From Ruminococcus bicirculans (ex Wegman et al. 2014) (GTDB taxonomy: Bacteria > Bacillota > Clostridia > Oscillospirales > Ruminococcaceae), in contig NZ_HF545616.1 in NCBI RefSeq assembly GCF_000723465.1, forward strand, positions 186,001 through 250,000: DNA of 64,000 bases, written 5' to 3'. This document shows, in pieces, positions 6,432 to 53,434 of this stretch; the stretch's first letter is position 1, and each line of letters starts with the position of its first letter. The notes below the pieces were generated by a model. That model made no database searches, was not told the origin of the DNA, and worked only from the letters and a program-made list of their open reading frames with translations. The translations under genes and the position numbers were made by a program.

Positions 6432-6449
6432 AAAGTTTTGAAAAAAGAC

Positions 6450-6478
6450 TTGCCATATTCGGTTTTCTGCGCTATAAT
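6450..6478 (+). promoter_or_regulatory. Sigma-A promoter of the large serine recombinase
   Basis: TTGCCA (6450-6455), 17 bases, TATAAT (6473-6478), about 45 bases before the recombinase ATG. Confidence 0.75.
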
Positions 6479-6524
6479 AGTTGTATCATCGAATATGGTT
6501 TGCTTTGATTGGAAAGGAGTTATT

Positions 6525-20347: not shown

Positions 20348-20593
20348 ATGGATACCCGTGTGGCAATACTTGCAATAATCGCACACGATAACGGCTCTGC
20401 GCAGGAGATAAACGCAATTCTTCATGAGCATGCCGAGTATATAATAGGACGAATGGGTCTGCCATACCGAGAACGTGGCATGAACATAATAAGTGTGGCA
20501 GTTGACGCTCCGCAGGACGTTATAAATTCTCTTGCAGGCAAGATAGGCAGGCTTGAGGGAGTGACCGCCAAGACCCTTTATTCGCCACAGTAA
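20348..20593 (+). CDS. TM1266-family iron-only hydrogenase system regulator
   Basis: An 81-residue ACT/NikR-C-like protein: TRVAILAIIAHDN at the start, HEHAEYIIGRMGLPYRERGMNIISV in the middle and GRLEGVTAKTL at the end. This is the pattern of the small putative regulators (TM1266 family) found beside [FeFe]-hydrogenase maturation genes. GGGGGTG precedes the ATG. It has no DNA-binding domain of its own, so it may act through a partner or by sensing a ligand. It opens the operon that continues with hydF. Confidence 0.8.
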   Translation: MDTRVAILAIIAHDNGSAQEINAILHEHAEYIIGRMGLPYRERGMNIISVAVDAPQDVINSLAGKIGRLEGVTAKTLYSPQ

Positions 20594-20714
20594 AAATCTA
20601 ATAAATATTTGTGACCCTGACGCCGAAAACGAGTTTTCTCCTTTAAGGCGAAAGAATACACATCAAGCAGAAAAAGTAAAAAGCAGATAGAAAGCCCTAT
20701 CTCTACTCATGTAG

Positions 20715-20733
20715 GGGCGAACAGCGTTCGCCC
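20715..20733. repeat. Short palindromic intergenic repeat (copy 2)
   Basis: GGGCGAAC-AGC-GTTCGCCC, preceded by TGTAG, in the gap between the TM1266-like gene and hydF. No terminator run follows. Confidence 0.75.
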
Positions 20734-20828
20734 GTGGATTAGGTTTTTTATGAGCAAGCATAGCCTTTTTTGTTATCAAAGCTGTATCCTCAGGGGTATG
20801 GCTTATTTTTTTGAGAGGAGCTTTTGCA

Positions 20829-22052
20829 ATGGGACTTAATGACGCACCAAGCGGAGAACGTATACATATAGGTTTTTTCGGCAGACGAAACGCAGGAAAA
20901 TCAAGCGTTGTGAATGCAGTAACAAATCAGGATCTTGCAGTGGTATCCGATACGAAAGGCACTACCACCGACCCTGTTACAAAGGCAATGGAGCTTTTGC
21001 CCCTTGGCCCTGTTGTGATAATAGATACCCCTGGCTTTGACGACGAGGGCGAGCTTGGAGAGCTTCGTGTGAAGAAAACTAAGCAGATACTAAACAGAAC
21101 AGATTGCGCCGTTCTTGTTACCGATTGCATCTTGCCCCTTGGCGACTGCGAAAAACAGCTTATCTCAATATTCAAAGAGAAAAACATACCCTTTATTATA
21201 GCCAAAAACAAAGCCGACCTGCTCACTGATATCCCAAAAGAGGAGGGCGCAGTGTACGTCAGCGCAAAAGAGAAAACAGGCATAGAGGAGCTTAAAAACG
21301 CCGTTGCAAAGCTTACTGAAACAGACACCATGACAATGAAGCTTGTGGGCGACCTTATAAAGCCTGACGATATGGTGGTGCTTGTCACCCCTATCGATAG
21401 CGCTGCACCAAAGGGCAGGCTTATCCTGCCACAACAGCAGGCGATAAGAGATGTTCTTGAAGCAAACGCCTGTGCAGTGGTGGTAAGAGAAACTGAGCTT
21501 TCAGGAGTGCTTGGCAGGATAGAGAAGCCTGCACTTGTTATAACGGATAGTCAGGCTTTCGCAAGAGTTTCAAAGGATACTCCCGAGGATATCCCTCTCA
21601 CCTCGTTTTCTATCCTTATGGCTAGATATAAGGGCTTTCTTGACGCCGCAGTAAAGGGCGTGAAAGCTATCGACGATCTTAAAGACGGTGACAAGGTGCT
21701 TATTTCAGAGGGCTGTACACATCACAGACAGTGCGGTGATATAGGCTCTGTGAAGCTTCCAAACTGGCTGAAAGAATACACAGGCAAGGAACTTGATATA
21801 ACATTGTCCTCAGGTCACGGCTTCCCAGAGGAGCTTTCAGACTTTGCGCTTTGTATACATTGTGGCGGCTGTATGTTAGGCTCAAAAGAGCTTACCTACA
21901 GAATGAAATGTGCTTGTGACGCAGACGTGCCGTTCACAAATTACGGCATTGCAATTGCCTATATGAAGGGTATTCTCAAACGGAGCATAGAAGTGTTTCC
22001 GCATCTTGTAAAGGAGCTTGAAGATCACAATGGCGGTCAGAGAACTTATTGA
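20829..22052 (+). CDS. hydF: HydF, [FeFe]-hydrogenase maturation GTPase/scaffold
   Basis: A 407-residue scaffold on which the two-iron subcluster of [FeFe] hydrogenase is built. The GTPase domain has GRRNAGKSS (19-26), DTKGTTTDP, DTPGFDD and KNKAD. The C-terminal [4Fe-4S] site has GCTHHRQC near 296 and HCGGC near 343, the CxH...HCxxC pattern. ATG 20829 is chosen because GAGAGGAG lies eight bases before it. The end overlaps hydE by 23 bases. HydF normally works with HydE and HydG; hydG is not in the window. Confidence 0.93.
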   Translation: MGLNDAPSGERIHIGFFGRRNAGKSSVVNAVTNQDLAVVSDTKGTTTDPVTKAMELLPLGPVVIIDTPGFDDEGELGELRVKKTKQILNRTDCAVLVTDCILPLGDCEKQLISIFKEKNIPFIIAKNKADLLTDIPKEEGAVYVSAKEKTGIEELKNAVAKLTETDTMTMKLVGDLIKPDDMVVLVTPIDSAAPKGRLILPQQQAIRDVLEANACAVVVRETELSGVLGRIEKPALVITDSQAFARVSKDTPEDIPLTSFSILMARYKGFLDAAVKGVKAIDDLKDGDKVLISEGCTHHRQCGDIGSVKLPNWLKEYTGKELDITLSSGHGFPEELSDFALCIHCGGCMLGSKELTYRMKCACDADVPFTNYGIAIAYMKGILKRSIEVFPHLVKELEDHNGGQRTY

Positions 22053-23070
22053 TAAACTAAACTGCGAGAAAAAGCTTTCCCATGAAGAGTGGGTGAAGCT
22101 TATAAAAGAATATGACGAGAGCGACAGAGCCTATGCCGCAGAGCTTGCAAGGTGCATTTCGCAGGAAATATTCGGCAGGGATATCTACATAAGGGGCATA
22201 GTGGAGTTTTCAAACATCTGCAAAAACGATTGCCTTTACTGCGGAATAAGGCGCTCAAACGGCAACGTGAGCAGATACAGGCTCACCGCCGAGGAGATCT
22301 TGCAGTGCTGTGACGAGGGCTACGGCTATGGCTTCCGTACCTTTGTGCTTCAAAGCGGTGAGGACGCTTTCTATGACAGAGAAATGCTCTGTGGTATCGT
22401 CAGCGAGATAAAAAAACGTCACCCTGATTGTGCAGTAACATTATCCCTAGGCGAGAAAAGCCGTGAGGACTATGAGGCATTTTTTAAGGCAGGTGCAGAC
22501 CGGTATCTGCTCAGGCACGAAACTGCCGACGAGGAGCATTACAAAAAGCTACACCCAGCCGAAATGTCTTGGAAAAACCGAATGGAGTGTCTTTCAGATC
22601 TTAAAGAGATAGGCTATCAGACAGGCTGTGGAATGATGATAGGCTCACCTTATCAGACGGTGGAGTGCCTTGCTGAGGATATGGAGTTTATGTGCGGTTT
22701 CAAGCCCGAAATGATAGGCATTGGACCTTTTCTCCCACATAAGGACACGCCTTTCAGAAGCTGTCCACAAGGCTCATATGAGCTTACTCTCTTTCTGCTG
22801 AGCATTTGCAGGATAATGCTCCCCGACGTTCTTTTGCCTGCCACCACAGCCCTTGGCACTATTGATCCCAAAGGGAGAGAACAAGGGGTGCTGTCAGGTG
22901 CGAACGTTATAATGCCGAATCTGTCCCCTGTGGCAGTGAGAAAAAAATATATGCTCTATGACAACAAGATATGCACAGGTGACGAGTCAGCACAGTGCAG
23001 GGCTTGCCTTGAAAGACGAATGGAGTCCATAGGCTATAAAATAAAGATATCAAGAGGAGATCACAGATAA
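22030..23070 (+). CDS. hydE: HydE, radical SAM maturase
   Basis: A 346-residue radical SAM enzyme. The cluster motif CKNDCLYC (CxxxCxxC) is near residues 64-71. The optional second cluster motif of HydE is also present near the end: C, seven residues, CRAC. Other motifs are [10 protein letters not shown] and [13 protein letters not shown]. HydE acts on an Fe-cysteine complex in assembling the H-cluster. ATG 22030 follows AAGGAG at 13 bases; the TTG at 22018 is too close to that site. The gene touches the next one at TAATG. Confidence 0.88.
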
Positions 23071-23834
23071 TGATAAAGCTTGCTTTTTACGGAAAAGGCG
23101 GAATAGGAAAGTCAACGGCGGCATCAAACGTCAGTGCTGCACTTGCACAAAAAGGGCTGAAGGTCATGCAGATAGGCTGTGACCCAAAGGCTGACTCCAC
23201 CATATTTCTCCATGGGGGAGAGAGGATACCCACCGTTCTTGACCTTGTGCGAAAAGGCGAAAGCTTTGACCTTGAAGATATGGTAAGGGTAGGCTATAAC
23301 GGTGTTGTGTGCGTTGAAGCAGGCGGTCCGGTGCCGGGGCTTGGCTGTGCAGGCAGAGGTATAATCGCCGCTTTGGAGGAGCTTGAAAAAAAGGGCGCAT
23401 ATGAAAAATATCAGCCTGACGTTGTTATCTATGACGTTCTCGGAGATGTGGTGTGCGGAGGCTTTTCAATGCCAATGCGAAAGGGCTATGCCGATAAGGT
23501 GTTTATCATCACATCAGGCGAGAGTATGTCTGTATATGCCGCCGCAAACATCGCAATGGCGGTGGAAAATTTCAAAAGCCGTGGATATGCTTCACTTGGC
23601 GGTTTTATCCTTAATAAACGCAACGTAAAAAACGAGGAGGAAAAAGCGGCAGAGCTTGCGGCTGATTTTCACAGCTCTGTGATAGCCGAGATAGATAGAA
23701 GTGAACTTGTGAGCGAAGCGGAGGATATACGCAAAACTGTCATGGAAGCTTTTCCTGACAGCACTGCGGCAGAGCAGTATAGAGCATTGGCGGATAAGAT
23801 AGCCGAGCTTTGCGGTATGGGAGAAGAAAAATGA
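23070..23834 (+). CDS. NifH-like ATPase, first copy
   Basis: A 254-residue P-loop iron protein of the NifH/BchL/CfbC family, which passes single electrons to a NifDK-like partner with ATP hydrolysis. GKGGIGKST (8-16), GCDPKADST (36-44), and the two cluster cysteines C93 (GLGCAGRG) and C129 (DVVCGGF) are all present, so it should hold the intersubunit [4Fe-4S] cluster. Length is slightly short of true NifH. It starts on the hydE stop codon and overlaps the next gene by four bases. Not a standard nitrogenase: no nifB, nifE or nifN is near. Confidence 0.92.
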
Positions 23835-25123
23835 TAAAAGAGAGCGGCATAAATATAACGAAGGCGGCTTTTCCTGCGCCTTTTGAAAGCGGTCTTGAAT
23901 ATAATCCCCCCACAAGGGGAGTGTGGAATATCGTCCATACCGGTATGCTTATCCCTGAGTCAAGGCAGATATTTGTCTGCGCACAGGGCTGTCTAAGGGG
24001 CGTTATCCTCACGGCGGCAGAAATGAACGCCATGGACAGAATGTCATGGGTGACTGTTTCTGAGCAGGATCTGTATGACGGCACAATGGAGCAGGACGTT
24101 ATAGACGGAGTGAGGGATATAATAAACAGGCTTGAGGAAAAGCCAAAATGCGTTTTGATTTTTCTAAGCTGTGTTCACCTTTTTGCAGGCTGTGACTTCA
24201 AAATGATAATAGACGAGCTTTCGGCATTGTTTCCGCAGGTGCATTTTATAGATTGCTACATGACGCCAACCATGAGAAAATCTATCTCTCCTGACAGCCT
24301 TATGAGAAAACAGCTTTACGAGCCACTTGAAAAGTGCGAAAAGAAGCCTAAAACGGCGGCTATAATAGGCTGTGACAGAGCCACGGACGAAGCCTCCGAG
24401 CTTGTAAAAATAATAAATTCAGCAGGCTTTGAGCTTCTTGACATAACAAAGTGCAAGACCTATGAGGAGTATCTCTCCATGGCGGAAAGCTCTTTGAATA
24501 TCACCTATATTCCCACGGCAAAGCCGTCAGGAGAGGAACTTGAAAAGCGACTTGGCACAAAGCATTTGTATCTGCCCTTGTGCTATGGCTATGATGAGAT
24601 AGAGGGAAATTACAGCAGGCTTTGCACCCAGCTTGGTGTGAAAACGCCTGACTTTTCTGCTGACAGAGAAGCCGCCGACAAGGCTCTTGCAAATGCCCTT
24701 GAGATAGTGGAGAATATGCCTATAGCCGTGGATTATACTGCTCTGCCAAGACCCCTTGACTTTTGCAGACTTCTTGCAGAGAAAGGCTTCAATGTGAAGC
24801 GTTGCTATGCCGACAGCTTTTCAGAGGAGGAAAGGGCAGATTTTGAGTGGCTGAAAGCCCATTGCCATGACCTTGAAATTCTCCCTACTGTGAATGTGAA
24901 AATGGAGTTTTCACAGTGCGAAGAAAAATATCTTGCCATAGGTCAGAAAGCGGCGTTTTTCTGCCAGACTGATAACTTCGTTGATATTGTCGCAGGGGGC
25001 GGTGGATACGGCTTCGAGGGCATAAAAAGGCTTGCAGAGCTTATGGCTGAGGGAGCAGTAAACAAAAAGGACAGACGTAAGGTGATACAACACAAGGGCT
25101 GGGGGTGTGAAAGCTGTCTATGA
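23831..25123 (+). CDS. NifD-like nitrogenase component 1 subunit, first copy
   Basis: A 430-residue member of the oxidoreductase/nitrogenase component 1 family. Likely cluster cysteines are C50 and C54 ([10 protein letters not shown]) and C114 ([12 protein letters not shown]). The end has [17 protein letters not shown], usual for the family, and a final GCESCL with two extra cysteines. I see no obvious match to the nitrogenase cofactor ligands Cys275 and His442 (Azotobacter NifD), so a FeMo-type cofactor is unlikely; an alignment is needed. ATG 23831 overlaps the H gene stop (ATGA); the frame to 23810 is not used. Partner: the K-like protein that follows. Confidence 0.88.
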
Positions 25124-26238
25124 ATGCAAAAGTGATATCCATATATGCGGCGGATACTTCGGGAGTATGCTCGGCACTTTATGAGCTTGGTGGAATGACC
25201 GTCGTCCATGACGCTTCGGGCTGTAACTCCACCTACGCCACCCATGACGAGCCACGCTGGTATGACCGCAAAAGCATGATATATATTTCTGCACTAACAG
25301 AAGCGGACGCCGTTATGGGCAATGACAGCAAGTTCATTCGTGATGTGGCAAAAGCGGCAGGTGAGCTTTCACCCAAATTCATAGCCATTTGCGGTTCGCC
25401 AATGCCTGCAATGACAGGCTTTGACTACAGTGCGGCCGCCGAGGAGATAGAGCGTGAAACGGGTCTGACCACATTTTTCGTTGATACCAACGGCACTCAT
25501 TCCTATCTTCAAGGAGCAGAGGGAGCTTTCCTTAATATTGCAAAGCTTTTCTGCCGTGAGGGAAAAGAAAAGCAGGCAAATTCAGTGAATATTATTGGTG
25601 CAACGCCCCTTGACTTTTCGGTGAATACAAGCGTAAGCTCCATAAAAAAGTGGCTTTTGGATAACGGCTTTTCAGTGCAAAGCTGTTTTGCTATGGACAG
25701 CAGTCTTGATGAGATCTCTACCGCACCACAGGCGGCTGTAAGCCTTGTTATATCATCAGACGGGATAGCTGTGGCAAAGTATCTTTTTGATACCTATGGA
25801 GTGCCATATGTAGTGGGCGTGCCTGTGGGGAAAAGCTTTTCCAAAAAGCTTTCCGCTGACCTGAAAAGAGCAGTGTCAGAGGGCGTTTGTATAAATTCCT
25901 GCGGTGAAAAAGCTGTAGAGAATGCTCATATGATAGTTGCGGGGGAAAGCGTTTTTGCTTCTTCCCTAGGGGCTGAACTTGGCGCAAAAACTGTGGCGAC
26001 AGTTGGCATAAGAAACAGCGAGGTGCTGTCAGGGACGGACATTTTCTGCGAGGAAGAAGCAGAGCTTGAAAAGCTTTTTTCACAGCATAAGACCGTCATA
26101 GCAGACCCGCTTTTCAGACCTATATGCAAAGTGGCAAGCTTTGTTTCACTGCCACACGTTGCTTTTTCGGGAAGATGTTTTCTTAAAGATATTCCCGATC
26201 TGATAGATAAAGATGTAAGCAAAAAACTTAACCTATAA
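25120..26238 (+). CDS. NifK-like nitrogenase component 1 subunit, first copy
   Basis: A 372-residue subunit, shorter than NifK (about 520). It keeps three cluster-type cysteines: C17 (TSGVCSAL), C35 (ASGCNST) and C91 (AICGSPMP). With the three of the D-like partner this could bind a P-cluster-like or [4Fe-4S] centre at the subunit interface. The end has FVSLPHVAFSGR. It overlaps the D-like gene by four bases. It is clearly paralogous to the gene at 28324, with the same DEPRW, GATPLxxS and PHxxxSGR landmarks. Confidence 0.87.
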   Translation: MNAKVISIYAADTSGVCSALYELGGMTVVHDASGCNSTYATHDEPRWYDRKSMIYISALTEADAVMGNDSKFIRDVAKAAGELSPKFIAICGSPMPAMTGFDYSAAAEEIERETGLTTFFVDTNGTHSYLQGAEGAFLNIAKLFCREGKEKQANSVNIIGATPLDFSVNTSVSSIKKWLLDNGFSVQSCFAMDSSLDEISTAPQAAVSLVISSDGIAVAKYLFDTYGVPYVVGVPVGKSFSKKLSADLKRAVSEGVCINSCGEKAVENAHMIVAGESVFASSLGAELGAKTVATVGIRNSEVLSGTDIFCEEEAELEKLFSQHKTVIADPLFRPICKVASFVSLPHVAFSGRCFLKDIPDLIDKDVSKKLNL

Positions 26239-26240
26239 AA

Positions 26241-26271
26241 AGGAGGAACGTGCTTTCGCACGGATACTTTT
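26241..26271 (+). promoter_or_regulatory. Shine-Dalgarno site set apart by a hairpin
   Basis: AGGAGG (26241-26246) is 25 bases from the ATG at 26272, too far for normal use. Between them CGTGC-TTTC-GCACG (26249-26262) can form a 5-bp hairpin that would shorten the spacing to about 11. No in-frame start lies closer. Confidence 0.55.
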
Positions 26272-27033
26272 ATGATAAAAATAGCCGTTTACGGAAAGGG
26301 CGGAATAGGAAAATCCACAGTTACGGGAAACCTTGCCGCCGCATTTGCAAGTCTTGGAAAAAGAGTTATACAAATTGGCTGTGACCCAAAGGCTGACTCC
26401 ACCATAAATCTTCTTGGTGGCGAGCCTGTTATGCCTGTGATGAATTATCTCAGAGAGCATGACGATGAGCCTGAGAGCATAGAGGAGATATCAAAAGAGG
26501 GCTATGGCGGAGTGCTTTGTATAGAAACAGGCGGTCCTACCCCCGGACTTGGCTGTGCAGGCAGAGGTATAATCACCACCTTCAGCCTGCTTGAAGACTT
26601 GAAGCTTTTTGAAAAATATAAGCCTGACGTTGTGCTTTATGACGTTCTCGGAGACGTTGTGTGCGGAGGTTTCGCCGCACCTATCAGAGAGGGCTACGCT
26701 TCAAAGGTGCTTATCGTCACCTCAGGCGAGAAAATGGCATTGTATGCCGCAAATAATATAAACAGTGCGGTGAAAAACTTTGCCGACAGAAGCTATGCAA
26801 AAGTTCGTGGTATCGTCATGAACAGGCGAAACGTTGAGGACGAGGAAGAAAAGGTCAGAGCCTTTGCAGAAAGTGCAGGGCTTGATATCGTTGCGGATAT
26901 ACCAAGAAGCGACGATATCATCAGATGTGAGGATAAGGGCATGACCGTCATAGAGGGCGAGCCTGACTGTCAGGCGGCAAAATGCTTTTTGAAGCTTGCC
27001 CAGACCCTTATGCAGGAGGACAACGATGACTAA
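26272..27033 (+). CDS. NifH-like ATPase, second copy
   Basis: A 253-residue paralogue of the first H protein with GKGGIGKST (8-16), [10 protein letters not shown]95 (GLGCAGRG) and C131 (DVVCGGF). It should pass electrons to one or both D-K pairs. Blocks around the P-loop and cluster motifs are nearly identical in DNA to the first copy while the rest differs. It is the only gene of the run not overlapped by its upstream neighbour (33-base gap with its own ribosome site). Its end overlaps the next gene by eight bases. Confidence 0.92.
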
Positions 27034-28327
27034 AGCGTTTTACATAACGGCGGCGGAGCTTGCCCAAAAGGGAAAAGATAATATCCCTGACGAGCTTCTT
27101 TCGGCAAAGCACCTTATCTACAGCTCCCCTGCAACATTGGCGTTCAATTCACCGGGAGCGCAGGGCTTTGGTGTAAAAAGAGCAGGACTTGCAGTGCCAA
27201 ATTCGGTTATGCTTCTTGTGGCTCCTGCCTGCTGTGGGCGAAACACCACTATGCTCAGTGCGGAAAGCGGCTACGGCGACAGATTTTTCTACCTGCTTCT
27301 TGACGATACCGATATCGTCACAGGCAGGCACCTTACAAAGATACCGAAAGCCGTGGAGGAGGTATGTCAAAGCCTTGATTACACTCCCTCGGCGGTGATG
27401 ATATGTATAACCTGCGTTGACGCTCTCCTCGGCACTGATATGGACAGAGTGTGCAGAAAATCCAGCGACCGAGCAGGCGTGCCTGTTGTGCCATGCTATA
27501 TGTATGCCCTCACAAGGGAAAAGCGTCTGCCCCCTATGGCTTCAGTGCGAAAATCGGTGTATTCCCTTTTGAAACCTCGCAAGAGAAAGTCTGACGAGGT
27601 GAATATCCTCGGTTATTTCTCACCCTTGCAGGAAGATTGCGAGCTTTACAGCCTGCTGAAAAGTGCAGGCGTAAAGACCATAAGAGAGCTTTCAAGGTGT
27701 GATACCTTCGAGGAATATGAAAAAATGTCGCAGGCAAATTTTTCTCTTGTACTCAATGCGGAAGCAAGATATGCCGCCCAGCAAATGGAGCAGGAGCTTA
27801 ACATACCTTTTATAGAGCTTGCGAGAGTTTTTCAGGCTGATAAGATATCTACGCAGTATCGTCTGCTGGGTCAGGCGATAGGAACGGAGCTTTGCGATAA
27901 AGAGTATTATGAGCAGACAATGGCTCTTATAGATGATTTCAGAGAAAAGCATAAAGGGCTGTGCTTTGCAGTGGGCGAGTTTTCCAACTGCGACCCTATA
28001 GAAATGGCATTGGCTCTTATAAGATACGGCTTCAAGGTGGCGGAGATATTCGGCACTGTGGGGGAGCGAAATTTCGGCTTTGTGAAAAAGATAGCACAGC
28101 TTTCCCCTGAAACAAAAATATATTCAAACCTCTCGCCAACAATGCTCTTTTATGAGCCTGACGAGAGGGTGAACGTTTATATCGGCAAGGATTGTGCCTA
28201 TTATCACCCTGACATAGCAGGAGCAGACTTCAATGACGAGATCCAGCCTTTTGGCTATGCAGGTGTAAAAAAGCTGTTTTGCGACCTTGAAAAGGCGCTT
28301 GATTGGAAAGGAGCGGAGGATAAATGA
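27026..28327 (+). CDS. NifD-like nitrogenase component 1 subunit, second copy
   Basis: A 433-residue paralogue of the first D-like protein. Likely cluster cysteines are the adjacent C69 and C70 (VAPACCGRN) and C130 ([12 protein letters not shown]). The end has [17 protein letters not shown]. Start ATG 27026 lies in the end of the H gene (ATGACTAA); the longer frame from 26996 is read-through. The Cys spacing differs from copy one (CC rather than CxxxC), so the metal site may differ. It does not resemble NifE beyond the family level as far as I can see. Confidence 0.86.
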
Positions 28328-29391
28328 AAAATCTTTTGAAGCTTTTGTCACCCTTTGCCCCTGACCAATCAGGTGCATCGGCAGTGCTTTACGAGCTTGG
28401 AGGACTAATGGTAATATGCGACGCAGGCGGCTGTGCAGGCAACGTCTGTGGCTTTGACGAGCCAAGGTGGTTTACCAAAAAGAGCGCAGTTTTCAGCGCG
28501 GGGCTTCGTGATATGGACGCAATTTTAGGACGTGACGACAGGCTTATCGAAAAGCTCTCCAAAGCCTGTGAGCAGATATCACCTGCTTTCACCGCCATAA
28601 TAGGCACACCTGTGCCTGCTGTCATCGCAACAGATATGAGAGCGTTGAAACGAATGACAGAGAAGAAAACAGGACTTCCTTGCATAACAGCCGAGTGTAC
28701 AGGCACGAACTATTACGACAGCGGCTCAGAGCCGGTGTGGATAGAGCTTTTCAAGACCTTTGCCACTGAGAGCAAGCCTGTTCAGAAAGGCAGGCTTGGC
28801 ATTATAGGTGCAACACCTTTGGAGCTTAGTATCATAAGCCCCGAGAGGATAGTGGCGGAATATAAGGCAAAGGGTTGGGAGAATGTTATATGCTACGGCA
28901 TGGGAAGCACCCTTGATGATGTGAAAAATGCGGCTGCGGCAGAGATGAACATAGTCTGTTCAGCGTCGGCAATAAAGGCGGCGGAGTATCTCAAAGAAAA
29001 GTTCGGCACGCCTTATGAGATAGAATATCCACGAAGCTGTCTGCCTGAGGAGATAGTGCAAAAAGCTGATAAATTTACGGATAAAAACGTCCTTGTGATA
29101 CATAACCAAACAGCGGCTGACACTGTGAGAAAGCTTATCACAGAAAAAAGCGGCAAGTGTCATTGCACATCGGCAACGTTTTTTATGCAGAAAAAGGGGC
29201 TTTCACAGCAGAGTGATTTTTTCCTTGCAGACGAAAGCGACCTTTGCGACAATGTTGGTGATAACTATGACGTTGTTATCGCAGACAAGACCCTCAGACG
29301 TGTTATGAAAAATTTCAGCGGCGAGTTTATAGACTTTCCGCATTTCGGACTTTCAGGCAGACTTTTGCAGGGAGAGAGTGAAAAGATATGA
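28324..29391 (+). CDS. NifK-like subunit, second copy, lacking two cluster Cys
   Basis: A 355-residue paralogue of the first K-like protein. Only one of the three cluster cysteines is kept: Ser19 stands where copy one has C17 (QSGASAVL), C37 is kept (AGGCAGN), and Gly replaces C91 (AIIGTPVP). Extra cysteines at 32 and 42 flank the kept one. It ends FIDFPHFGLSGRLL. It overlaps genes on both sides by four bases. The cluster of this D-K pair must be bound differently, or be partly lost; a scaffold or regulatory role is possible. Confidence 0.86.
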   Translation: MKNLLKLLSPFAPDQSGASAVLYELGGLMVICDAGGCAGNVCGFDEPRWFTKKSAVFSAGLRDMDAILGRDDRLIEKLSKACEQISPAFTAIIGTPVPAVIATDMRALKRMTEKKTGLPCITAECTGTNYYDSGSEPVWIELFKTFATESKPVQKGRLGIIGATPLELSIISPERIVAEYKAKGWENVICYGMGSTLDDVKNAAAAEMNIVCSASAIKAAEYLKEKFGTPYEIEYPRSCLPEEIVQKADKFTDKNVLVIHNQTAADTVRKLITEKSGKCHCTSATFFMQKKGLSQQSDFFLADESDLCDNVGDNYDVVIADKTLRRVMKNFSGEFIDFPHFGLSGRLLQGESEKI

Positions 29392-29789
29392 CAGAAGAAA
29401 TTATAGAGCGTCTTGAAGAATATCTCGGCTCAGAGGAGTTTGAATATGAAGCCGAAAACTGCATGGAGGAGCTTGACGAAAGTGGCGAGGGCATAAACGC
29501 AGTTTTGCCTTTGCTTAGGTTTCTCGAAAGACACCCCATGGCTGATATAAGCATGACAAGTGCCGTGGTGAGATATATGGAGCAGTTTTACGGCAGAGGT
29601 TATGAGAACATTCTCATGGACTCCGTTCGTCGCAGACCTACTGTGCATACTGTGAGAATGTTAGGCAGGCTCAGAAATGCCGCCATAGATGAGGGTCAGG
29701 ACGGTGAGGAGTTTGAGGACGTGCTTATAGACGTTCTCAGCAGTGAAGCAGAGGACGAGATAAAGGATACCGTCAGGGAGCTTATCTGA
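29388..29789 (+). CDS. Small acidic protein of the nitrogenase-like operon
   Basis: I do not recognise this 133-residue protein. It is acidic and almost wholly helical, with repeat-like helices (EEIIERLEEYLG, MTSAVVRYMEQFYG, TVRMLGRLRN, EVIDVL-like segments), suggesting a small HEAT-like or helical-bundle fold. It has one cysteine and no metal motif. ATGA overlap with the K-like gene and TGATG with hypF place it firmly in the operon, so a role in assembly or as an adaptor for the complex is a reasonable guess. It is not HypA: the N-terminal MHE and the CxxC pairs are missing. Confidence 0.7.
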   Translation: MTEEIIERLEEYLGSEEFEYEAENCMEELDESGEGINAVLPLLRFLERHPMADISMTSAVVRYMEQFYGRGYENILMDSVRRRPTVHTVRMLGRLRNAAIDEGQDGEEFEDVLIDVLSSEAEDEIKDTVRELI

Positions 29790-32068
29790 TGAAAACTGAG
29801 ATGATTCGTGTTTATGGTATCGTTCAGGGCGTGGGCTTCCGACCTTTTGTCAGCCGTGAAGCGTCAGACCTTGGACTTTGCGGCACTGTGGCAAACAAAG
29901 GCTCTTATGTTGAGATACACGCACAGGGCAGTGAAAAGGCTGTGGACGAGCTGAAAAAAGCCCTTGAAAGCCGTCCCCCTGAGCGTTCGGTGATAATGGA
30001 GATAATTTCCGCCCATTTGGACGAGCCACCATTTGACAGCTTTGAGATAATCGACAGCGAAAAAGAAAAAGGTGATATTTTCGTATCCCCTGACATCGCT
30101 GTGTGCGAAAAATGCAAGGGAGAGCTTTTTGATAAAACGAACAGAAGATATCTCCACCCTTTTATAAACTGCACCCAGTGCGGCCCAAGGCTCACTATTA
30201 TGGACTCTATGCCCTATGACAGAGTTCGCACCACAATGGCTGACTTTCCAATGTGCAAAGACTGCGAGGAGGAGTACACCGACCCTGCCACAAGGCGTTA
30301 TGACGCCCAGCCTGTGTGCTGTAACAAATGCGGTCCGGAGGTCTATATCATAGGCAGTGAAAAGAAAGGCGCTGAGGCTATCACCGCCACAAGAGAAGCC
30401 GTCATGGCAGGGAAGATAATCGCTGTCAAAGGCATAGGCGGTTTTCACCTTTGCTGTGACGCAAAAAACGAGAGCGCAGTAAAAAGGCTCAGAGAGCTTA
30501 AAAACCGCCCTGCAAAGCCACTTGCCGTTATGCTGAAGGATATTTCTGCCGCAAGGCGTGAGTGCGATTTTGGCGAAGTGCAGGAAAAGCTTCTCACAGG
30601 CTGGCAAAAGCCTATCGTGCTTCTTGATAAAAAAACTAGTGGAAGCCTTTGCGAAAGCGTTGCACCCGATAATCCTACAGTGGGAGTAATGCTTCCCTAT
30701 GCCCCTTTGCACCTGCTTCTTTTTGATTACGATGACGGTGTGGAAATGACCGACAGCCTTGTTATGACCAGCGGAAACGTCCGTGGCGCACCTATTTGTC
30801 GAAGCGACGAGGACGCACTCAGCGAGATTTCAGGCTTCTGCGACCTGATATTATCCCACAACAGACGTATCTTGATACGCTCAGACGATACTGTCATGGA
30901 CACATTTGAGGGCAAGCCTTACATAATAAGGCGTTCAAGAGGATATGCACCATTGCCTGTTATGACATCATGCAGTGATAAAGGTCAGACCCTTGCCATA
31001 GGCGGTGAACTTAAAAATACGTTCTGTATCAGAAAGGGAAGCCTTTATTATCTCTCTTCCTATGTGGGGGATATGGCTGATATCCGCACTGTAAAGGCGC
31101 TTGAGGAGTCAGTAAAGCGTATGTGCGAACTTCTGGAAGCAACACCGCAAAACGTAGTCTGCGATATGCACCCTAAATACAATACAGTTGCATTTGCCGA
31201 GGGGCTTGACCTGCCTCTGAAAAAAGTCCAGCACCACTATGCTCATATCCTATCCTGCATGGCAGAAAACGACTATAGTGAAAAGGTCATAGGCGTATCA
31301 TATGACGGCACAGGCTTTGGCACAGACGGCACCATATGGGGAGGAGAGCTACTTCTCTGCGACCGCACAGGCTTTGAGCGTATGGGAAGCATAAAGCCCT
31401 TCATGCAGGTGGGTGGCGATCTTTCCTCTAAAGAGGGCTGGCGTATCGCCGCAATGATTGCAGGCTCAGCCTATGGGGAAAGGGGCGGAGAGATCTGTGA
31501 AAAGCTTGGTATTTGTACAGCGAAAGAGTACAAGCTTCTGTCCATAATGGCAGAGAAAAAAGTAAACGCAGTAAGCTCCACAAGCGCAGGACGGCTTTTT
31601 GACGCCGCTTCTGCAGTGCTTGGCATAAGGCGTTCTTCTACCTTTGAGGGTGAAGCTTCCATGGCGTTGCAGTTTGCGGCAGAAAAATTCAGCCGTGAGC
31701 CGTTCGGTATTTACGAGCCTATGGAAAAGCTCACTGCCGAAAAAGAGGGCAGGATAATGCTCTGCACTCAGGCTCTTATCAAGCGTCTTTGCCAGGGTAT
31801 GCAAAATGGTGAGGATAAAAACCGCCTTGCCTATGAGTTTCACTCACTTCTTGCGGATATGACGGTGCAGGCGTGCAGGACCATAAGCAAGAGAACAGGC
31901 GTAAAGGTCTGTGCCCTGAGCGGGGGAGTTTTTCAGAACAAGCTTCTGCTTAAAATGGTGAAGTGCCGCCTTGAAAAAATGGGGCTTAGAGTACTTATCC
32001 ACAGCCTTGTGCCTGCCAATGACGGTGGTATAGCTTTGGGACAAGCGTTTTATCTGAATGAGGAATGA
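29789..32068 (+). CDS. hypF: HypF carbamoyltransferase
   Basis: A 759-residue enzyme that moves the carbamoyl group of carbamoyl phosphate to the C-terminal Cys of HypE, the source of cyanide ligands. Domains in order: acylphosphatase (VYGIVQGVGFRPFV, 9-22), two CX2CX18CX2C zinc motifs (about 105-185), a YrdC-like domain (KGIGGFHLCCDA), and a Kae1-like domain with QHHYAHILS and a late ALSGGVFQN. All key parts are present and length is normal. It starts on the stop of the small acidic gene (TGATG). Confidence 0.95.
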   Translation: MKTEMIRVYGIVQGVGFRPFVSREASDLGLCGTVANKGSYVEIHAQGSEKAVDELKKALESRPPERSVIMEIISAHLDEPPFDSFEIIDSEKEKGDIFVSPDIAVCEKCKGELFDKTNRRYLHPFINCTQCGPRLTIMDSMPYDRVRTTMADFPMCKDCEEEYTDPATRRYDAQPVCCNKCGPEVYIIGSEKKGAEAITATREAVMAGKIIAVKGIGGFHLCCDAKNESAVKRLRELKNRPAKPLAVMLKDISAARRECDFGEVQEKLLTGWQKPIVLLDKKTSGSLCESVAPDNPTVGVMLPYAPLHLLLFDYDDGVEMTDSLVMTSGNVRGAPICRSDEDALSEISGFCDLILSHNRRILIRSDDTVMDTFEGKPYIIRRSRGYAPLPVMTSCSDKGQTLAIGGELKNTFCIRKGSLYYLSSYVGDMADIRTVKALEESVKRMCELLEATPQNVVCDMHPKYNTVAFAEGLDLPLKKVQHHYAHILSCMAENDYSEKVIGVSYDGTGFGTDGTIWGGELLLCDRTGFERMGSIKPFMQVGGDLSSKEGWRIAAMIAGSAYGERGGEICEKLGICTAKEYKLLSIMAEKKVNAVSSTSAGRLFDAASAVLGIRRSSTFEGEASMALQFAAEKFSREPFGIYEPMEKLTAEKEGRIMLCTQALIKRLCQGMQNGEDKNRLAYEFHSLLADMTVQACRTISKRTGVKVCALSGGVFQNKLLLKMVKCRLEKMGLRVLIHSLVPANDGGIALGQAFYLNEE

Positions 32069-32115
32069 GGAGTGAGGAATTAAGGTATCGCCTGCGGCGA
32101 TGATTTTCTTATTCT

Positions 32116-32286
32116 GTAGGGGCGACCTTTGGTCACCTGAGGCTGTTTAAAAATACCAAAATAACAGGCGAACGCTATTCGCCCCTACATATAAACAGCG
32201 TATTTACGCCAATTGTAGGGGACGGCGCCCTCGACGTCCCGCTTTTGTCGAACTTTTTCAATAAGCTGGGGCGACCTTTGGTCGCC
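32116..32286. repeat. Cluster of four palindromic intergenic repeats
   Basis: Four copies lie in the 274-base gap between hypF and hypC: GGCGACC-TTT-GGTCACC near 32120, GGCGAACGCTATTCGCC near 32167-32183 (reversed, ending CCCCTACAT), GGGGACG...CGTCCC near 32217-32240, and GGCGACC-TTT-GGTCGCC at 32270-32286. All share the TGTAGGGGCGA-type start. No gene is seen here. Confidence 0.7.
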
Positions 32287-32342
32287 TGTGTATCTCATTT
32301 CTGATTTTGTTATATAGATTAAATTTTTTTGGAGGTATTGAT

Positions 32343-32552
32343 ATGTGTGTAGGTTTATCTGCAAAGGTTGTAAGTGTAAACGAGGGCACTGCTGTTATTG
32401 ACGCAAGCGGTGCAAAAAGAGAGGTATCTGCTGACCTTATCGACGATCTCGAAGTAGGGGATTATGTCATGGTACACGCAGGGGTGGCTATCGCAAAGAT
32501 AACCTCTGACGATAGCGAAGAAACTGACGAGATAATGGAGAGTATCCAATGA
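32343..32552 (+). CDS. hypC: HypC chaperone
   Basis: A 69-residue chaperone starting MCVGLSAKV, with the essential Cys2 that carries iron with HypD, and the VGDYVMVHAGVAIAKI core of the family. GGAGG lies before ATG 32343; the longer frame from 32307 is not used, since HypC needs its N-terminal Met-Cys. It overlaps hypD by four bases. Confidence 0.95.
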   Translation: MCVGLSAKVVSVNEGTAVIDASGAKREVSADLIDDLEVGDYVMVHAGVAIAKITSDDSEETDEIMESIQ

Positions 32553-33601
32553 ACACTATAGAAAATGCAAAGGAGATAATAAGCTCCTACAAACGTGAGG
32601 ACGGCAAAAAGCTTCGCATAATGGAGGTCTGCGGCACTCACACCCACGAGATTTTCAGGCTTGGCATAAGAAAGCTCCTTCCTGAGAGCGTTGAGCTTAT
32701 CTCAGGTCCTGGCTGTCCTGTGTGCGTTACTCCCATTGGCTTCATCGACGAGGCTTGTATGCTCGCTCTTGAAAAAGGTGCGGAGATATGCACTTTCGGT
32801 GACCTTATAAGAGTACCCGGTACAGAAATGAGCCTTGCAGGAGCAAGGTCAAAGGGTGCTGTAATAAAGACAGTCTATTCGCCCCTTGACGCAGTTTCAT
32901 ATGCCGAAAGCCATAGAGATGAGCAGGTGGTATTTCTCGCCGTTGGCTTTGAGACCACCACCCCATCAGCCTGCCTTGCAGTAGAAAAAGCGAAAAAGCT
33001 GGGGCTTGAAAACTTCTCTATTCTTGGTGCAAACAAGACCATGCCAAATGCTTATAAGGCTTTGGAGGGAAGTGCAGACGCATTTTTGTACCCTGGCCAT
33101 GTCAACGCTATCACAGGCACAGCCGTGTGCGAGGAGCTTGTGAAAAAGGGCGTTTCAGGCGTTGTTACGGGCTTCACGGCCGCTGAACTTCTTACGGCTC
33201 TTGCTGTTACCATAGAGCTTTCTCAGCGTGGCGAGCCGTTTTTCAGAAACTGCTATCCTAGAGTAGTAAAGCCCGAGGGCAACCCAGCCGCCATAAAGCT
33301 TATGGAAAAGGTCATGACCCCCTGCGACAGCGAGTGGCGTGGACTTGGTATTATCCCAATGTCAGGCATGATACTCCGTGACGAGTATGCTGACTTTGAC
33401 GCACGAAAGAAATTCGCTCTGCCGAAAATAACAGGCAAGCCAAACCCAGCCTGCCGCTGCGGAGATGTTTTGCAGGGCAAGTGCAAGCCCTCGGATTGTA
33501 AAGTTTTCGGCAAGGTCTGTACACCGCTGCACCCTATAGGTGCGTGCATGGTGTCAAACGAGGGCGCTTGCTCAGCATATTATCAGTATGGCAATTTGTA
33601 A
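32549..33601 (+). CDS. hypD: HypD, iron-cyanide assembly protein
   Basis: A 350-residue [4Fe-4S] protein on which the Fe(CN)2CO unit is built with HypC and HypE. Seen motifs are MEVCGTHTH (near 28-36), GPGCPVCVTP (near 55), GFETTTP, PGHVNAITG and the C-terminal Cys-rich block CRCGDVLQGKC to GACMVS. All expected cysteines are present. It overlaps hypC by four bases and lies 28 bases before hypE. Confidence 0.95.
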   Translation: MNTIENAKEIISSYKREDGKKLRIMEVCGTHTHEIFRLGIRKLLPESVELISGPGCPVCVTPIGFIDEACMLALEKGAEICTFGDLIRVPGTEMSLAGARSKGAVIKTVYSPLDAVSYAESHRDEQVVFLAVGFETTTPSACLAVEKAKKLGLENFSILGANKTMPNAYKALEGSADAFLYPGHVNAITGTAVCEELVKKGVSGVVTGFTAAELLTALAVTIELSQRGEPFFRNCYPRVVKPEGNPAAIKLMEKVMTPCDSEWRGLGIIPMSGMILRDEYADFDARKKFALPKITGKPNPACRCGDVLQGKCKPSDCKVFGKVCTPLHPIGACMVSNEGACSAYYQYGNL

Positions 33602-33629
33602 AATAAACTATCCGAAAAGAGGAATAATT

Positions 33630-34637
33630 ATGACAGATAAATTTGTTACCCTTGCCCACGGCGCAGGAGGAAAGCAGACTTCCGAGCTTATCGACCGTGT
33701 TTTTAAGGAGCATTTCGCTAACCCTGACCTGACCGCCGACGATGCCGCCGTGCTTTCCATGGAAAAGGGCAAGATAGCATTCACCACAGACGGCTTTATA
33801 GTTTCTCCATACGAATTCGCAGGGGGAAATATCGGCAAGCTAAGTATTTGCGGCACTGTGAACGACCTTTCCTGCATGGGCGCAAAGCCTTTGTATCTCT
33901 CATGTGCTTTCGTTATCGAGGAGGGCTTTCCAATGGATAAGCTTGAGGAGATAGCCGCCGCCATGGCAAAGACCGCCAAGGAAGCAGGTGTCGAGATATG
34001 TGCAGGTGATACCAAGGTGGCAGGAAAAGGTCAGGTAGACGGCGTTTTCATTACCACTACGGGCATAGGCAGGATAATGGACAACGCCAACACCTCAGGC
34101 AAGCTTGCCAAAGCAGGCGACGCCGTTATAGTGTCAGGTGATATCGGCAGACACGGCTGTACCATACTTTTAGCTCGTGACGAGTTCGGCATAGAGGCAG
34201 ACGTAACAAGCGATTGTGCACCCCTCTGGGCAAACGTAAAAGCAATGTTCGACGTTACAAACGATATCCACGTTATCCGTGACGCAACAAGAGGCGGTGT
34301 AGGCACTGTTCTTTACGAGATAGCAGGTCAAAGCGGTGTGGGAATAACCCTTGACGCTGAGAAAATACCGGTGGCAGACGAGGTGAAAGGCGTGTGCGGT
34401 ATGCTGGGCTTAGAACCATTGTATCTCGCCTGCGAGGGCAGACTTGTTATATTCGCACCAAAGGACAAAGCGGAGGATATCGTTTCTGCTCTTAGAAAGT
34501 GCAAAAACTCAGAGAACGCCGCTGTCATAGGCGAGGTCACAGAGGATAACGCAGGCAGAGTTGTAATGAAAACAGAGATAGGCTCACAGACCCTTCTTCC
34601 ACAGCCGGGCGGAGAGCTTCTCCCTAGAATTTGCTGA
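33630..34637 (+). CDS. hypE: HypE, thiocyanate-forming maturase
   Basis: A 335-residue protein that dehydrates the carbamoyl group on its last Cys to a thiocyanate. The N-terminus AHGAGGKQTSELI, the DATRGGVGTVLYE segment and the terminal PRIC, with the acceptor Cys at the very end, are all intact. ATG 33630 has AGAGGAA upstream; the frame from 33540 runs through hypD. It is the last gene of the operon before the bidirectional terminator. Confidence 0.95.
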   Translation: MTDKFVTLAHGAGGKQTSELIDRVFKEHFANPDLTADDAAVLSMEKGKIAFTTDGFIVSPYEFAGGNIGKLSICGTVNDLSCMGAKPLYLSCAFVIEEGFPMDKLEEIAAAMAKTAKEAGVEICAGDTKVAGKGQVDGVFITTTGIGRIMDNANTSGKLAKAGDAVIVSGDIGRHGCTILLARDEFGIEADVTSDCAPLWANVKAMFDVTNDIHVIRDATRGGVGTVLYEIAGQSGVGITLDAEKIPVADEVKGVCGMLGLEPLYLACEGRLVIFAPKDKAEDIVSALRKCKNSENAAVIGEVTEDNAGRVVMKTEIGSQTLLPQPGGELLPRIC

Positions 34638-34871: not shown

Positions 34872-36131
34872 TTATCTGTAAGACTCTATCGCCTCAATAG
34901 TCTTTGCTATATCCTCGTCACTGTGAGCATAGGAAACGAACATCGCCTCGAATTGCGACGGTGCAGTGTAAATGCCGCTTTGAAGCATATGACGGTAGTA
35001 TCTGCCGTAGCTTTCCGTGTCGCAAGCCCTTGCCTCATCATAGCTTTTCACTCTCTCGTCATTGAAAAATACCGTCATAAGCGAACCACAGCGATTCACG
35101 TTCAGACCCTTTTCTCTTATGGCATTCTCTATCATAGCCGACTTTTTGTCAAGCTCCTCATAGAAGTTTGGTATGCTTTCTATCTGCCTGATAGTTTCTA
35201 TTCCTGCCGCTACTGCGCATGGGTTTCCAGACAGCGTGCCTGCCTGATAAACAGAGCCTAGTGGTGCAACGCACTGCATTATCTCAAGCTTTCCCCCATA
35301 GCAGGCAAGGGGCATTCCTCCGCCCACTATCTTGCCAAGGGTAGTCATGTCAGGGGTAACTCCGAAATATTTTGAAGCTCCCCCATCTGAAAGCCTGAAG
35401 CCCGTTATAACTTCGTCAAATATAAGCACAGTGCCGTGCTTTTTCGTTATCTCTCTTAGAAATTCAAGAAAGCCATTTTCAGGCGGAACAACGCCCATGT
35501 TTGCGGCGCATGGTTCAACGATAAGTGCGGCTATCTCGCTGCCGTATTCCTCAAAAAGCTTTTCTACCGACGCCGTGTCATTGTATTTCGCAAGAAGCGT
35601 GTCCTTTGTGCAGCCCTCTGTCACTCCTGCACCCGATGGGATAGACTGCGTCATAAGTCCAGAGCCTGCCTTTACAAGCAATCCGTCCGAGTGACCATGA
35701 TAACAGCCCTCGAATTTTATTATCTTGTCCCTGCCAGTATATCCTCTTGCGGCTCTTATTGCGCTCATGACAGCTTCCGTGCCTGAGTTTACGAGCCTGA
35801 GCATTTCCATAGACGGAAAGTGCTTTTTAATAAGCTCCGCCAAGGTTATCTCGCCCTTGTGGCAAGCACCGAAGGTAAGCCCCTTGTCGCAGGCGGCTTT
35901 CACAGCATTTATCACAGGCTCACAGCAGTGACCAAGAATGTTCGGCCCCCATGAGCATACATAGTCGATGAACTCGTTTCCGTCCTCGTCCCATATCCTT
36001 GACCCTTTCGCATGGTCGATAAAAAGCGGAACAGTGCCAACCGCCTTGCAGGCTCTAACAGGGCTGTTCACTCCACCGGGCATAAAACCGCAGGCAGTTT
36101 TGTAAAGCTGTTCAGACCTTGAAGTGTTCAT
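34872..36131 (-). CDS. hemL: Glutamate-1-semialdehyde aminotransferase
   Basis: A 419-residue PLP enzyme that makes 5-aminolevulinate in the C5 pathway. Motifs: GGVNSPVRA near the start, EGCYHGHSD, FDEVITGFR and the PLP lysine in TLGKIVGGGMP. ATG 36131 shares its A with the hemB stop (TAATG) and AAAGGAGG lies inside the end of hemB; the frame to 36152 is read-through. Last gene of the tetrapyrrole operon. Confidence 0.95.
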   Translation of the reverse strand: MNTSRSEQLYKTACGFMPGGVNSPVRACKAVGTVPLFIDHAKGSRIWDEDGNEFIDYVCSWGPNILGHCCEPVINAVKAACDKGLTFGACHKGEITLAELIKKHFPSMEMLRLVNSGTEAVMSAIRAARGYTGRDKIIKFEGCYHGHSDGLLVKAGSGLMTQSIPSGAGVTEGCTKDTLLAKYNDTASVEKLFEEYGSEIAALIVEPCAANMGVVPPENGFLEFLREITKKHGTVLIFDEVITGFRLSDGGASKYFGVTPDMTTLGKIVGGGMPLACYGGKLEIMQCVAPLGSVYQAGTLSGNPCAVAAGIETIRQIESIPNFYEELDKKSAMIENAIREKGLNVNRCGSLMTVFFNDERVKSYDEARACDTESYGRYYRHMLQSGIYTAPSQFEAMFVSYAHSDEDIAKTIEAIESYR

Positions 36132-37099
36132 TACTTGTCCTCCTTTATCCATTTTGCGGCGTCAAGAGCATGGTATGTTATGATAATGTCCGCACCTGCT
36201 CGCTTTATAGCAGTGAGATTTTCAAGAACGATACGCTTCTCGTCTATCCAGCCAAGCTGTGCCGCCGCTTTTACCATAGAGAACTCACCGCTTACGTTGT
36301 ATGCCGCAATCGGCAGATCATATCTGTCCCTGGCGGCTCTGAGGATATCAAGATAACAAAGCGCAGGCTTCACCATTACCATGTCAGCCCCCTCCTCGAT
36401 ATCGTCCTCTATCTCACGGAGAGCCTCACGTCCGTTGCAAGGATCCATCTGATATGACTTTCTGTCGCCAAAGCATGGTGCAGATTCTGCGGCGTCACGA
36501 AACGGAGAATAATATCCCGAAGCAAATTTTGCACTGTATGACATTATAGGGATATCAGTAAGAGCATTCTCGTCAAGCGCCGCCCTTATTGCCGCAACTC
36601 TGCCGTCCATCATGTCGGAGGGTGCGATAATGTCAGCGCCGGCCTTTGCAAGGCTCACCGCCATTTTGCACAGAAGCGGCAAAGTGCTGTCATTGAGTAT
36701 CTTGTCGCCCTTTACAACTCCGCAGTGTCCATGGCTGGTATATTCGCAAAGACAAACGTCTGCAATAATAAGCAGGTCAGGATAATGCTCTTTGATGTAT
36801 CTTATTGCCTGTTGTGTAACGCCCTTGTCATTGTAAGCCTCCGTTGCAAGCTCGTCCTTTTTCTCTGGTATGCCGAAAATAAGCAAGCCCGATATCCCAC
36901 TGTCTGCTATCTGCGGCAATATCTGCTCCAGATTGTCGATAGAATACTGATAAACTGTTGGCATAGAGTCAACAGGCTTCATGATGTCATTGCCCTCTGC
37001 CACAAAAATCGGGTAGATAAAGTCTGCCGCATTTAATCTTGTTTCGCAAACCATTCTTCTCATTGCTGGGTTTGCCCTTAATCTTCTGAATCTTCGCAT
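36131..37099 (-). CDS. hemB: Porphobilinogen synthase
   Basis: A 322-residue enzyme that joins two 5-aminolevulinates to porphobilinogen. The metal site cysteines are in [14 protein letters not shown], and the active lysines in [12 protein letters not shown] and [12 protein letters not shown]. It starts 13 bases after cobA-hemD and ends on the hemL start. Confidence 0.95.
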
Positions 37100-37112
37100 T
37101 TTTATCTTCCTC

Positions 37113-53418: not shown

Positions 53419-53434
53419 ACCATAATCACCACCT

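Follow-up and report, generated by a model that had tools for sequence, protein, structure and literature searches.

The operon described here lies at positions 20348-34637 of a 64,000-nucleotide stretch of the Ruminococcus bicirculans genome (the window, positions 186001-250000 of contig NZ_HF545616.1, the larger of the two contigs of a 2.97-Mb genome that is 99.95% complete), and it probably encodes an alternative pathway for the ligands of the H-cluster of [FeFe]-hydrogenases, in which nitrogenase-like proteins, usually together with HypCDEF, replace the maturase HydG. Its genes are all placed on the + strand in the order TM1266-hydF-hydE-H1-D1-K1-H2-D2-K2-orf133-hypF-hypC-hypD-hypE, in which the two nitrogenase-like triplets are designated set 1 (H1, D1 and K1) and set 2 (H2, D2 and K2), and collectively H/D/K. 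In the standard maturation, as outlined in the accessible parts of PMC9431212, HydG cleaves tyrosine into carbon monoxide (CO) and cyanide (CN), which HydE and HydF receive in the form of an Fe(CO)2(CN) unit; both that paper and the title of PMC3105041 name HydG as the enzyme from which the H-cluster obtains its CO and CN ligands. The conclusion that H/D/K stands in for HydG in HydE-bearing genomes is well supported by genomics, while the chemistry, the origin of the CO, and the way in which set 1 and set 2 share the work are inferred. The operon itself is real, widespread, and under-described.

Distribution of HydG and of the nitrogenase-like genes

The co-occurrence of HydE, HydG, and H/D/K was assessed in two partly overlapping genome samples, both including the host, which comprised 120 relatives and 391 class-wide genomes. 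HydG was scored at E 1e-60 in the former and at E 1e-85 in the latter, and at E 1e-30 plus the model cut-off in 37 genomes reached via 37 of the 80 related loci described below. Among the 120 relatives, HydE was found in 72 genomes, HydG in 35, and a D1 or D2 match in 35 (34 with D1, and G001 with D2 only). The 72 HydE-positive genomes were divided into 34 with HydG only, 35 with H/D/K only, none with both, and three with neither, the last being drafts (G011, G044, and G104) that were 70, 55, and 76% complete, respectively. The one HydG genome of this sample without HydE, G037, was 75% complete.

The class-wide search with D1, performed at E 1e-40, recovered 21 genomes, of which 16 scored at least 443 bits and were considered D1 proper, and five scored at most 356 bits and were set apart; this split was made on score after the lists had been seen, and then on the neighborhood in the four loci read. 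The five lower-scoring relatives are held as another subfamily because their scores differ and because their neighbors differ in the four that were read. In this sample, HydE was present in 257 genomes, HydG in 239 (eight of them without HydE), and D1 proper in 16, all of which were HydE-positive and HydG-negative. Swaps between D1 and HydG were also observed inside genera, namely g140 (six genomes with D1, three with HydG), g220 (two and one), and g273 (one and one). In g140, hydE adjoins hydG in G240 and G392, and G461 carries the row hydE-hydF-K1-D1-TM1266-hypE-hypD-hypC.

Regarding the 37 locus genomes, HydG exceeded its cut-off in a single one, that of Clostridium thailandense. Eight more presented weaker TIGR03955 matches of 171-228 bits (cut-off 312), and such matches below the cut-off were taken as putatively ThiH-like. 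No TIGR03955 match was found in Clostridium ljungdahlii at E 1e-30, and neither a HydG above the cut-off nor a PF00374 match was found in Ruminococcus albus KH2T6, AR67, and 8.

It could be argued that HydE and HydF scavenge free CO and cyanide, or make use of a divergent HydG, and that H/D/K and Hyp fulfill another role, co-regulated with hydrogenase maturation, such as that of a separate redox enzyme with an Fe-CN/CO center. This comes close to the second option of the original prediction, an electron-driven reductase. Work cited in PMC9431212, as far as its accessible text goes, reported about 1% activation with HydF matured in vitro with HydE alone, and the same paper proposes atypical HydG candidates in acetogens. 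However, D1 proper and HydG were mutually exclusive in all but one of the genomes tested for both, with swaps inside genera, and a bystander need not disappear where HydG is present, so this explanation appears improbable.

Hydrogenases, Hyp proteins, and HydE

The host encodes two [FeFe]-hydrogenases, one above the cut-off of the group-A model and the other above that of the B1 model, and it combines them with HydE and HydF above their cut-offs, as generally expected for [FeFe]-hydrogenase maturation. HydG (TIGR03955) had no match at E 1e-60 in the host and 28 congeners, and no [NiFe]-hydrogenase large subunit (PF00374) was matched in the host genome. The host therefore retains Hyp proteins with no [NiFe] enzyme to be seen, and HydE and HydF with no HydG. 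In the same genus, R. albus 7 produces hydrogen and uses [FeFe]-hydrogenases, according to the available portion of PMC6776011. Separately, it was noticed that 45 of the 120 relatives had the PF02906 [FeFe]-hydrogenase domain and no HydE at E 1e-70, and 44 of these 45 were also HydG-negative.

The motifs counted here in HypC, HypD, and HypE are those needed for Hyp function, and they were intact in the H/D/K loci: the Met-Cys of HypC in 68/68 sequences, CGTH and GPGCPVC of HypD in 65/65, and the C-terminal PRIC of HypE in 51/51. These alignments, like those of HydE and of the H, D, and K residues given below, contain some nearly identical sequences because a few of the genomes had been retrieved two times, and partial or low-identity matches were excluded (4/69 for HypD and 6/57 for HypE); distinct tails numbered 59/68 for HypC, 55/65 for HypD, and 45/51 for HypE.

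A second explanation would assign the hyp genes to an unrecognized [NiFe]-hydrogenase, leaving only set 1 tied to the H-cluster. PF00374 was indeed matched in 9 of the 37 locus genomes, where the matches of C. ljungdahlii and C. thailandense cover most of the domain and those of the other seven only its first 68-69 positions, but there was no match in the remaining 28 or in the host. HypD was found in 35 of the 120 relatives, comprising the host, 27 congeners, G063, and six others, and a HypB above its cut-off was absent from all 29 genomes of the first three groups but present in four of the six others; eight HypD-negative genomes of the sample have HypB. The host itself had no HypB above the cut-off, its sole HypB-like match, at 81 bits against a cut-off of 121, being probably UreG. 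Service to a [NiFe]-hydrogenase was rejected on these PF00374 and HypB searches, and it is regarded as very unlikely. The operon shares HypC, HypD, HypE, and HypF, with their key motifs, with the HypABCDEF maturation of [NiFe]-hydrogenases, and differs from it in that HypB was not found above the cut-off in the genus sample nor a [NiFe] large subunit in the host.

HydE from the H/D/K loci was also compared with its counterpart from HydG-bearing genomes. Cys68, Cys72, and Cys75 were kept in all 74 aligned HydE sequences from H/D/K loci (69 distinct among 73 fetched). Signature differences between the 74 D1-type and 10 HydG-type sequences were sought and discarded, as no position was fixed differently and six mostly conservative shifts were noted, the listing being confined to positions at which each group reached a 60% consensus. 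The lack of fixed differences suggests that HydE receives a similar substrate in both cases, and that the two pathways probably meet at the Fe(CO)2(CN) unit.

Organization of the operon

The genes named by the original prediction were all recovered where it had placed them, with HydF, HydE, and HypF above their cut-offs, two Fer4_NifH and four Oxidored_nitro proteins, and HypC, HypD, and HypE. The first gene (20348..20593) encodes a TM1266-like regulator (PF21699, 'Iron-only hydrogenase system regulator, putative'), which was matched in 65 of the 80 related loci. It is followed by hydF (20829..22052), which encodes the [FeFe]-hydrogenase maturation GTPase (TIGR03918, 548.5 bits, cut-off 325.6) and whose open reading frame opens with TTG at 20811, with an ATG at 20829, and by hydE (22030..23070), which encodes the radical S-adenosylmethionine maturase (TIGR03956, 577 bits, cut-off 254.6). 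Set 1 comprises the NifH-like Fe protein H1 (23070..23834; PF00142, Fer4_NifH) and the component-1 alpha-like and beta-like subunits D1 (23831..25123) and K1 (25120..26238), both with PF00148 (Oxidored_nitro). Set 2 repeats this arrangement with H2 (26272..27033; PF00142), D2 (27026..28327; PF00148), and K2 (28324..29391; PF00148). Downstream, orf133 (29388..29789) encodes an acidic protein of 133 amino acids with no Pfam match and no family assigned. It was detected in only two of 109 other loci (L074 and L078), which belong to one genome, and is thus not considered a core part of the system. The row ends with hypF (29789..32068), the carbamoyltransferase for the cyanide precursor (TIGR00143, 770 bits, cut-off 466); hypC (32343..32552; PF01455), which keeps the N-terminal Met-Cys; hypD (32549..33601; PF01924), the iron-ligand scaffold; and hypE (33630..34637; PF00586/PF02769, AIRS and AIRS_C), which keeps the C-terminal PRIC. 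The start contexts and the nearly continuous overlap that had been described were present as well, since eight of the nine adjacent gene pairs from hydF through hypF touch or overlap, with a gap of 33 bases between K1 and H2.

On both sides, the operon is flanked by mobile-element genes, namely a relaxase, a large serine recombinase, Abi_2, and a phage-type integrase (2591-4276, 6438-8189, 52519-53460, and 59328-60725). An Rfam scan of the 64-kb window yielded one tRNA and nothing else.

Gene neighborhoods in related genomes

The related loci considered were the best 80 of 402 stretches. Set 2 together with hyp genes was present in 62 of them; four displayed a second layout, and the 14 left unclassified were all cut by contig ends at 3.2-11.6 kb. 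From this distribution, the operon is no chance assembly. Moreover, of the 66 loci that extend 2.5 kb or further to the left of D1, 54 contain hydE. The original prediction had conceded that it would be undermined by relatives carrying H/D/K without hyd or hyp neighbors as a rule; such a rule did not hold for the D1 family, and it was seen in the lower-scoring outgroup, in the four loci read. The gene order varied among the loci: in C. ljungdahlii and C. thailandense it was H2D2K2-hypFCDE-H1D1K1, with hydE not in the stretch, and two loci of genus g140 (L190 and L191) held both D/K pairs and a single H gene, of the H2 type. The cluster was also found in records titled Lentisphaeria, Victivallales, and Spirochaetaceae, and a plasmid search with D1 retrieved one Treponema match, at 28.7%.

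The second layout, designated layout B, was observed in four of the 80 loci (L109, L133, L141, and L142), in which set 1 accompanies an iron-chelate-type binding protein, without set 2 and without hyp, and the FecCD permease was also present in three of these four. Layout B with both transport genes was further found in G058, G060, G089, G110, and G068 (L065-L067, L070, and L071), and in G224, G379, G527, and G295 (L197-L200), whereas G050 lies on cut contigs. In this layout, the set-1 H/D/K genes usually lie beside hydE, and the importer consists of the FecCD permease and a PF01497-type binding protein, as determined by Pfam runs on the transport proteins of G110 and G058 only. In G110 (L070), a TM1266 domain was found in the same reading frame as an ATP-binding cassette (ABC) ATPase. 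Among the lower-scoring outgroup, the loci of G227, G331, and G294 carry H/D/K with both transport genes and that of G419 the binding protein only, G301 being the locus not read.

These transport genes favor a third explanation, in which set 1 would be an iron-supply reductase that, in the manner of its relatives next to siderophore-type transporters, reduces a ferric chelate and delivers ferrous iron to HydE and HydF, the ligands coming from Hyp or elsewhere. Layout B, the frame shared by the ABC ATPase and TM1266 in G110, and the transport genes of the outgroup loci all agree with it, and so does the H/D/K of a Sporomusa termitida plasmid, found with iron transport genes. Nevertheless, it leaves unexplained why the missing gene is precisely HydG, a ligand source, and feoB adjoins the cluster in just 5 of the 109 other loci; such a role is regarded as rather unlikely. 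As for the plasmid locus itself (pSPTER, L207), H/D/K adjoins a TonB siderophore receptor, an iron ABC transporter, and an alpha/beta-hydrolase-fold gene, and possibly represents an ATP-driven ferric-siderophore reductase.

Relationship to known nitrogenase-like enzymes

The operon shares the Fe-protein plus component-1 architecture, and the fold of the D1 and D2 models, with NifHDK/NifEN, BchLNB, CfbCD, and MarHDK. Identity with a known enzyme, which the original prediction had named as a refutation, was not shown for its products, the cut-offs of NifH, CfbC, BchL, BchX, NifD/K/E, BchN/B, and CfbD not being reached. With the nitrogenase models, H1 and H2 scored 322 and 312 of the 394 bits required and the D and K proteins at most 71 bits. 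With BchL, the H proteins scored 193 and 212 of 345 bits, and with BchX 172 and 198 of 331, the D and K proteins reaching at most 54 bits (BchB) with the DPOR/COR models. For MarHDK, the comparison was made with the solved methylthio-alkane reductase complex and gave a mixed picture: the best solved relative of H1 was 9fmg_D, at 249 bits, but D1 profiles gave only 13-15 bits with 9fmg_A.

A siroheme-type operon (hemA-sirC-hemC-cobA/hemD-hemB-hemL, 34872-41162, - strand) converges on the hyp genes of the window. This adjacency, together with the 331 bits of H1 with the CfbC model NF033200 (306 for H2), might suggest that H/D/K are tetrapyrrole reductases comparable to CfbCD or DPOR. However, the CfbC cut-off is 402 bits, K1 and K2 scored only 16 and 25 bits with CfbD (TIGR03282, cut-off 268), for which D1 and D2 were not listed, and the six hem/sir genes adjoin the cluster in none of the 109 other loci. 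The tetrapyrrole explanation was rejected on this last result, and hardly any likelihood is left to it.

Both H proteins retain the nucleotide-binding loop together with a pair of cluster cysteines: the loop and Cys93/Cys129 were conserved in 98 aligned H1 sequences, and H2 keeps the loop as well as Cys95/Cys131, conserved in 78 sequences. In D1, Cys57, Cys61, Cys121, and Cys433 were present in 97/97 sequences, and Cys149 and Cys436 in 97-99%. Cys35 was conserved in 93 K1 sequences; D2 keeps Cys79, Cys80, Cys137, and Cys140, and Cys37/Cys42 were conserved in 74 K2 sequences. It was also noted that D1 ends in a nearly invariant GxGCxxC (window 25103-25123; Cys433 100%, Cys436 97%), a segment modeled with low confidence that is a possible candidate metal site.

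The AlphaFold models of D1 (pLDDT 83.9) and D2 (pLDDT 84.8) both presented the nitrogenase component-1 fold. Their best Foldseek matches were chain 8oie_C of the Rhodobacter capsulatus iron nitrogenase (15% identity) and the Clostridium pasteurianum MoFe protein 4wes_B (17%), the 50 best matches of each model lay at 10-18% identity, and the sequence profiles were remote from every solved structure. In a quick D/K tree, D1 joined D2 (SH-aLRT 99) and K1 joined K2 (100). The D and K rows were separate from those of Rhizobium NifE/K/N and Roseobacter BchN/B and from the Sporomusa pair, although the placement of these Nif, Bch, and Sporomusa rows is unsure owing to the quick method and long branches. 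The transporter-linked L201-L204 fell inside the D/K rows, which suggests a duplication from transporter-linked ancestors. In the H tree, H1 and H2 separated weakly (support 68/0), with the bootstrap unsettled.

Dos Santos et al. (2012, PMC3464626) had reported uncharacterized clades with two closely linked NifHEN-like copies in gut Lachnospiraceae, whose D-like subunit has two P-cluster-type Cys and whose K-like subunit has one, and the accessible passages of that paper give them neither a function nor a link to hydrogenases. Their cysteine pattern fits D1 and K1, and these paired triplets probably belong to the same family as those of the operon. The searches, made among open-licence papers, turned up none that connects nitrogenase-like proteins with HydG or with the H-cluster, and none that joins the paired triplets with the hydG and hypA/hypB genes missing from acetogens.

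Proposed mechanism and points that weigh against it

HypEF supplies cyanide, and HypCD supplies CN/CO-bearing iron with two CN per CO. In the proposed pathway, carbamoyl phosphate would be the starting material from which HypF and HypE form a cyanide donor bound to protein, and HypC and HypD would place the cyanide on iron, known Hyp chemistry being diverted in this way from [NiFe]-hydrogenase. The two complexes of NifH-like and component-1 proteins would draw on low-potential electrons, driven by ATP, both to provide the ligands and to adjust them; most plausibly, they would reduce CO2 to CO and rework the Hyp-type Fe(CN)2(CO) to yield the Fe(CO)2(CN) unit that an ordinary HydE accepts. HydE and HydF would then complete the di-iron subsite for the [FeFe]-hydrogenases of the cell. 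Compared with the HydE-HydF-HydG maturation, HydE, HydF, and the [FeFe]-hydrogenases are common to both, whereas in the host no HydG was found and nitrogenase-like triplets, usually with Hyp, are present instead. Set 2 would be the likely Hyp-facing partner, given its co-occurrence with hyp, and set 1 the constant part. Since layout B combines set 1 and an importer without Hyp, set 1 would there make both ligands or use an imported compound, and the imported iron complex itself may enter the pathway.

By reduction, nitrogenases form CO from CO2 and from cyanate, and cyanide from thiocyanate; a literature search on these side reactions found nothing. A more specific version of the proposal, put forward tentatively and with somewhat more doubt than confidence, is that the nitrogenase-like complexes might be organometallic synthases, which would convert CO2, or enzyme-bound carbamate or thiocyanate, into iron-bound CO and cyanide and turn the Hyp-built Fe(CN)2(CO) into Fe(CO)2(CN), passed to HydE. 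This would constitute a second H-cluster pathway, independent of tyrosine and HydG, with an evolutionary origin in transporter-linked relatives whose substrates may be iron chelates. As its first option, the original prediction had offered either an enzyme or an assembly line whose metal site uses CN/CO-bearing iron; the assembly line fits best, an enzyme with a CN/CO metal site of its own is not needed, and a replacement of HydG for the H-cluster had not been considered.

Several points weigh against the replacement of HydG by H/D/K. Its support is genomic, and the Hyp product, with two CN to one CO, mismatches the H-cluster without further chemistry; layout B, which has no hyp genes, would need another source of cyanide. 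The Fisher values for the exclusion between HydG and H/D/K (2e-17 and 5e-19) ignore shared ancestry, so the swaps within genera carry more weight. C. thailandense holds both HydG and the H/D/K cluster, and, like C. ljungdahlii, has a [NiFe] large subunit. In addition, 10 of the 257 class-wide HydE-positive genomes have neither HydG nor D1 proper, four of which (G220, G313, G433, and G483) are 99% complete and are left unexplained. Four of the five lower-scoring D1 relatives occur in HydG-positive genomes (G227, G301, G331, and G419), the fifth (G294) having neither HydG nor HydE, and hydE was not within the stretch in 12 of the 66 loci. Finally, PMC9431212, in its accessible text, proposes atypical HydG candidates in all of its eight acetogens but Clostridium autoethanogenum, which was assigned a HydG.

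Implications

According to the same accessible text of PMC9431212, published in 2022, five of its eight genomes of acetogenic Clostridium yield no hydG with known motifs and five yield no hypA/hypB, for which no firm explanation is given, scavenging or unknown mechanisms also being offered for the missing hydG. The accessible transposon data for C. autoethanogenum (PMC9004356) contain nothing on the genes studied here. Nitrogenases were reported in 23% of 501 rumen genomes in the available portion of PMC6776011.

If the replacement of HydG by H/D/K is correct, it would explain the reported gaps in gas-fermenting acetogens, in which hydG and hypA/hypB are missing, and nitrogenase-like genes that may be tallied as nitrogenases in surveys would gain a function. 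It would also provide new enzymes for metal carbonyl and cyanide synthesis. This reading is testable in organisms that can be grown in the laboratory, and the existence of another, unrelated pathway would alter the present view of how the H-cluster cofactor is made and how its making evolved.

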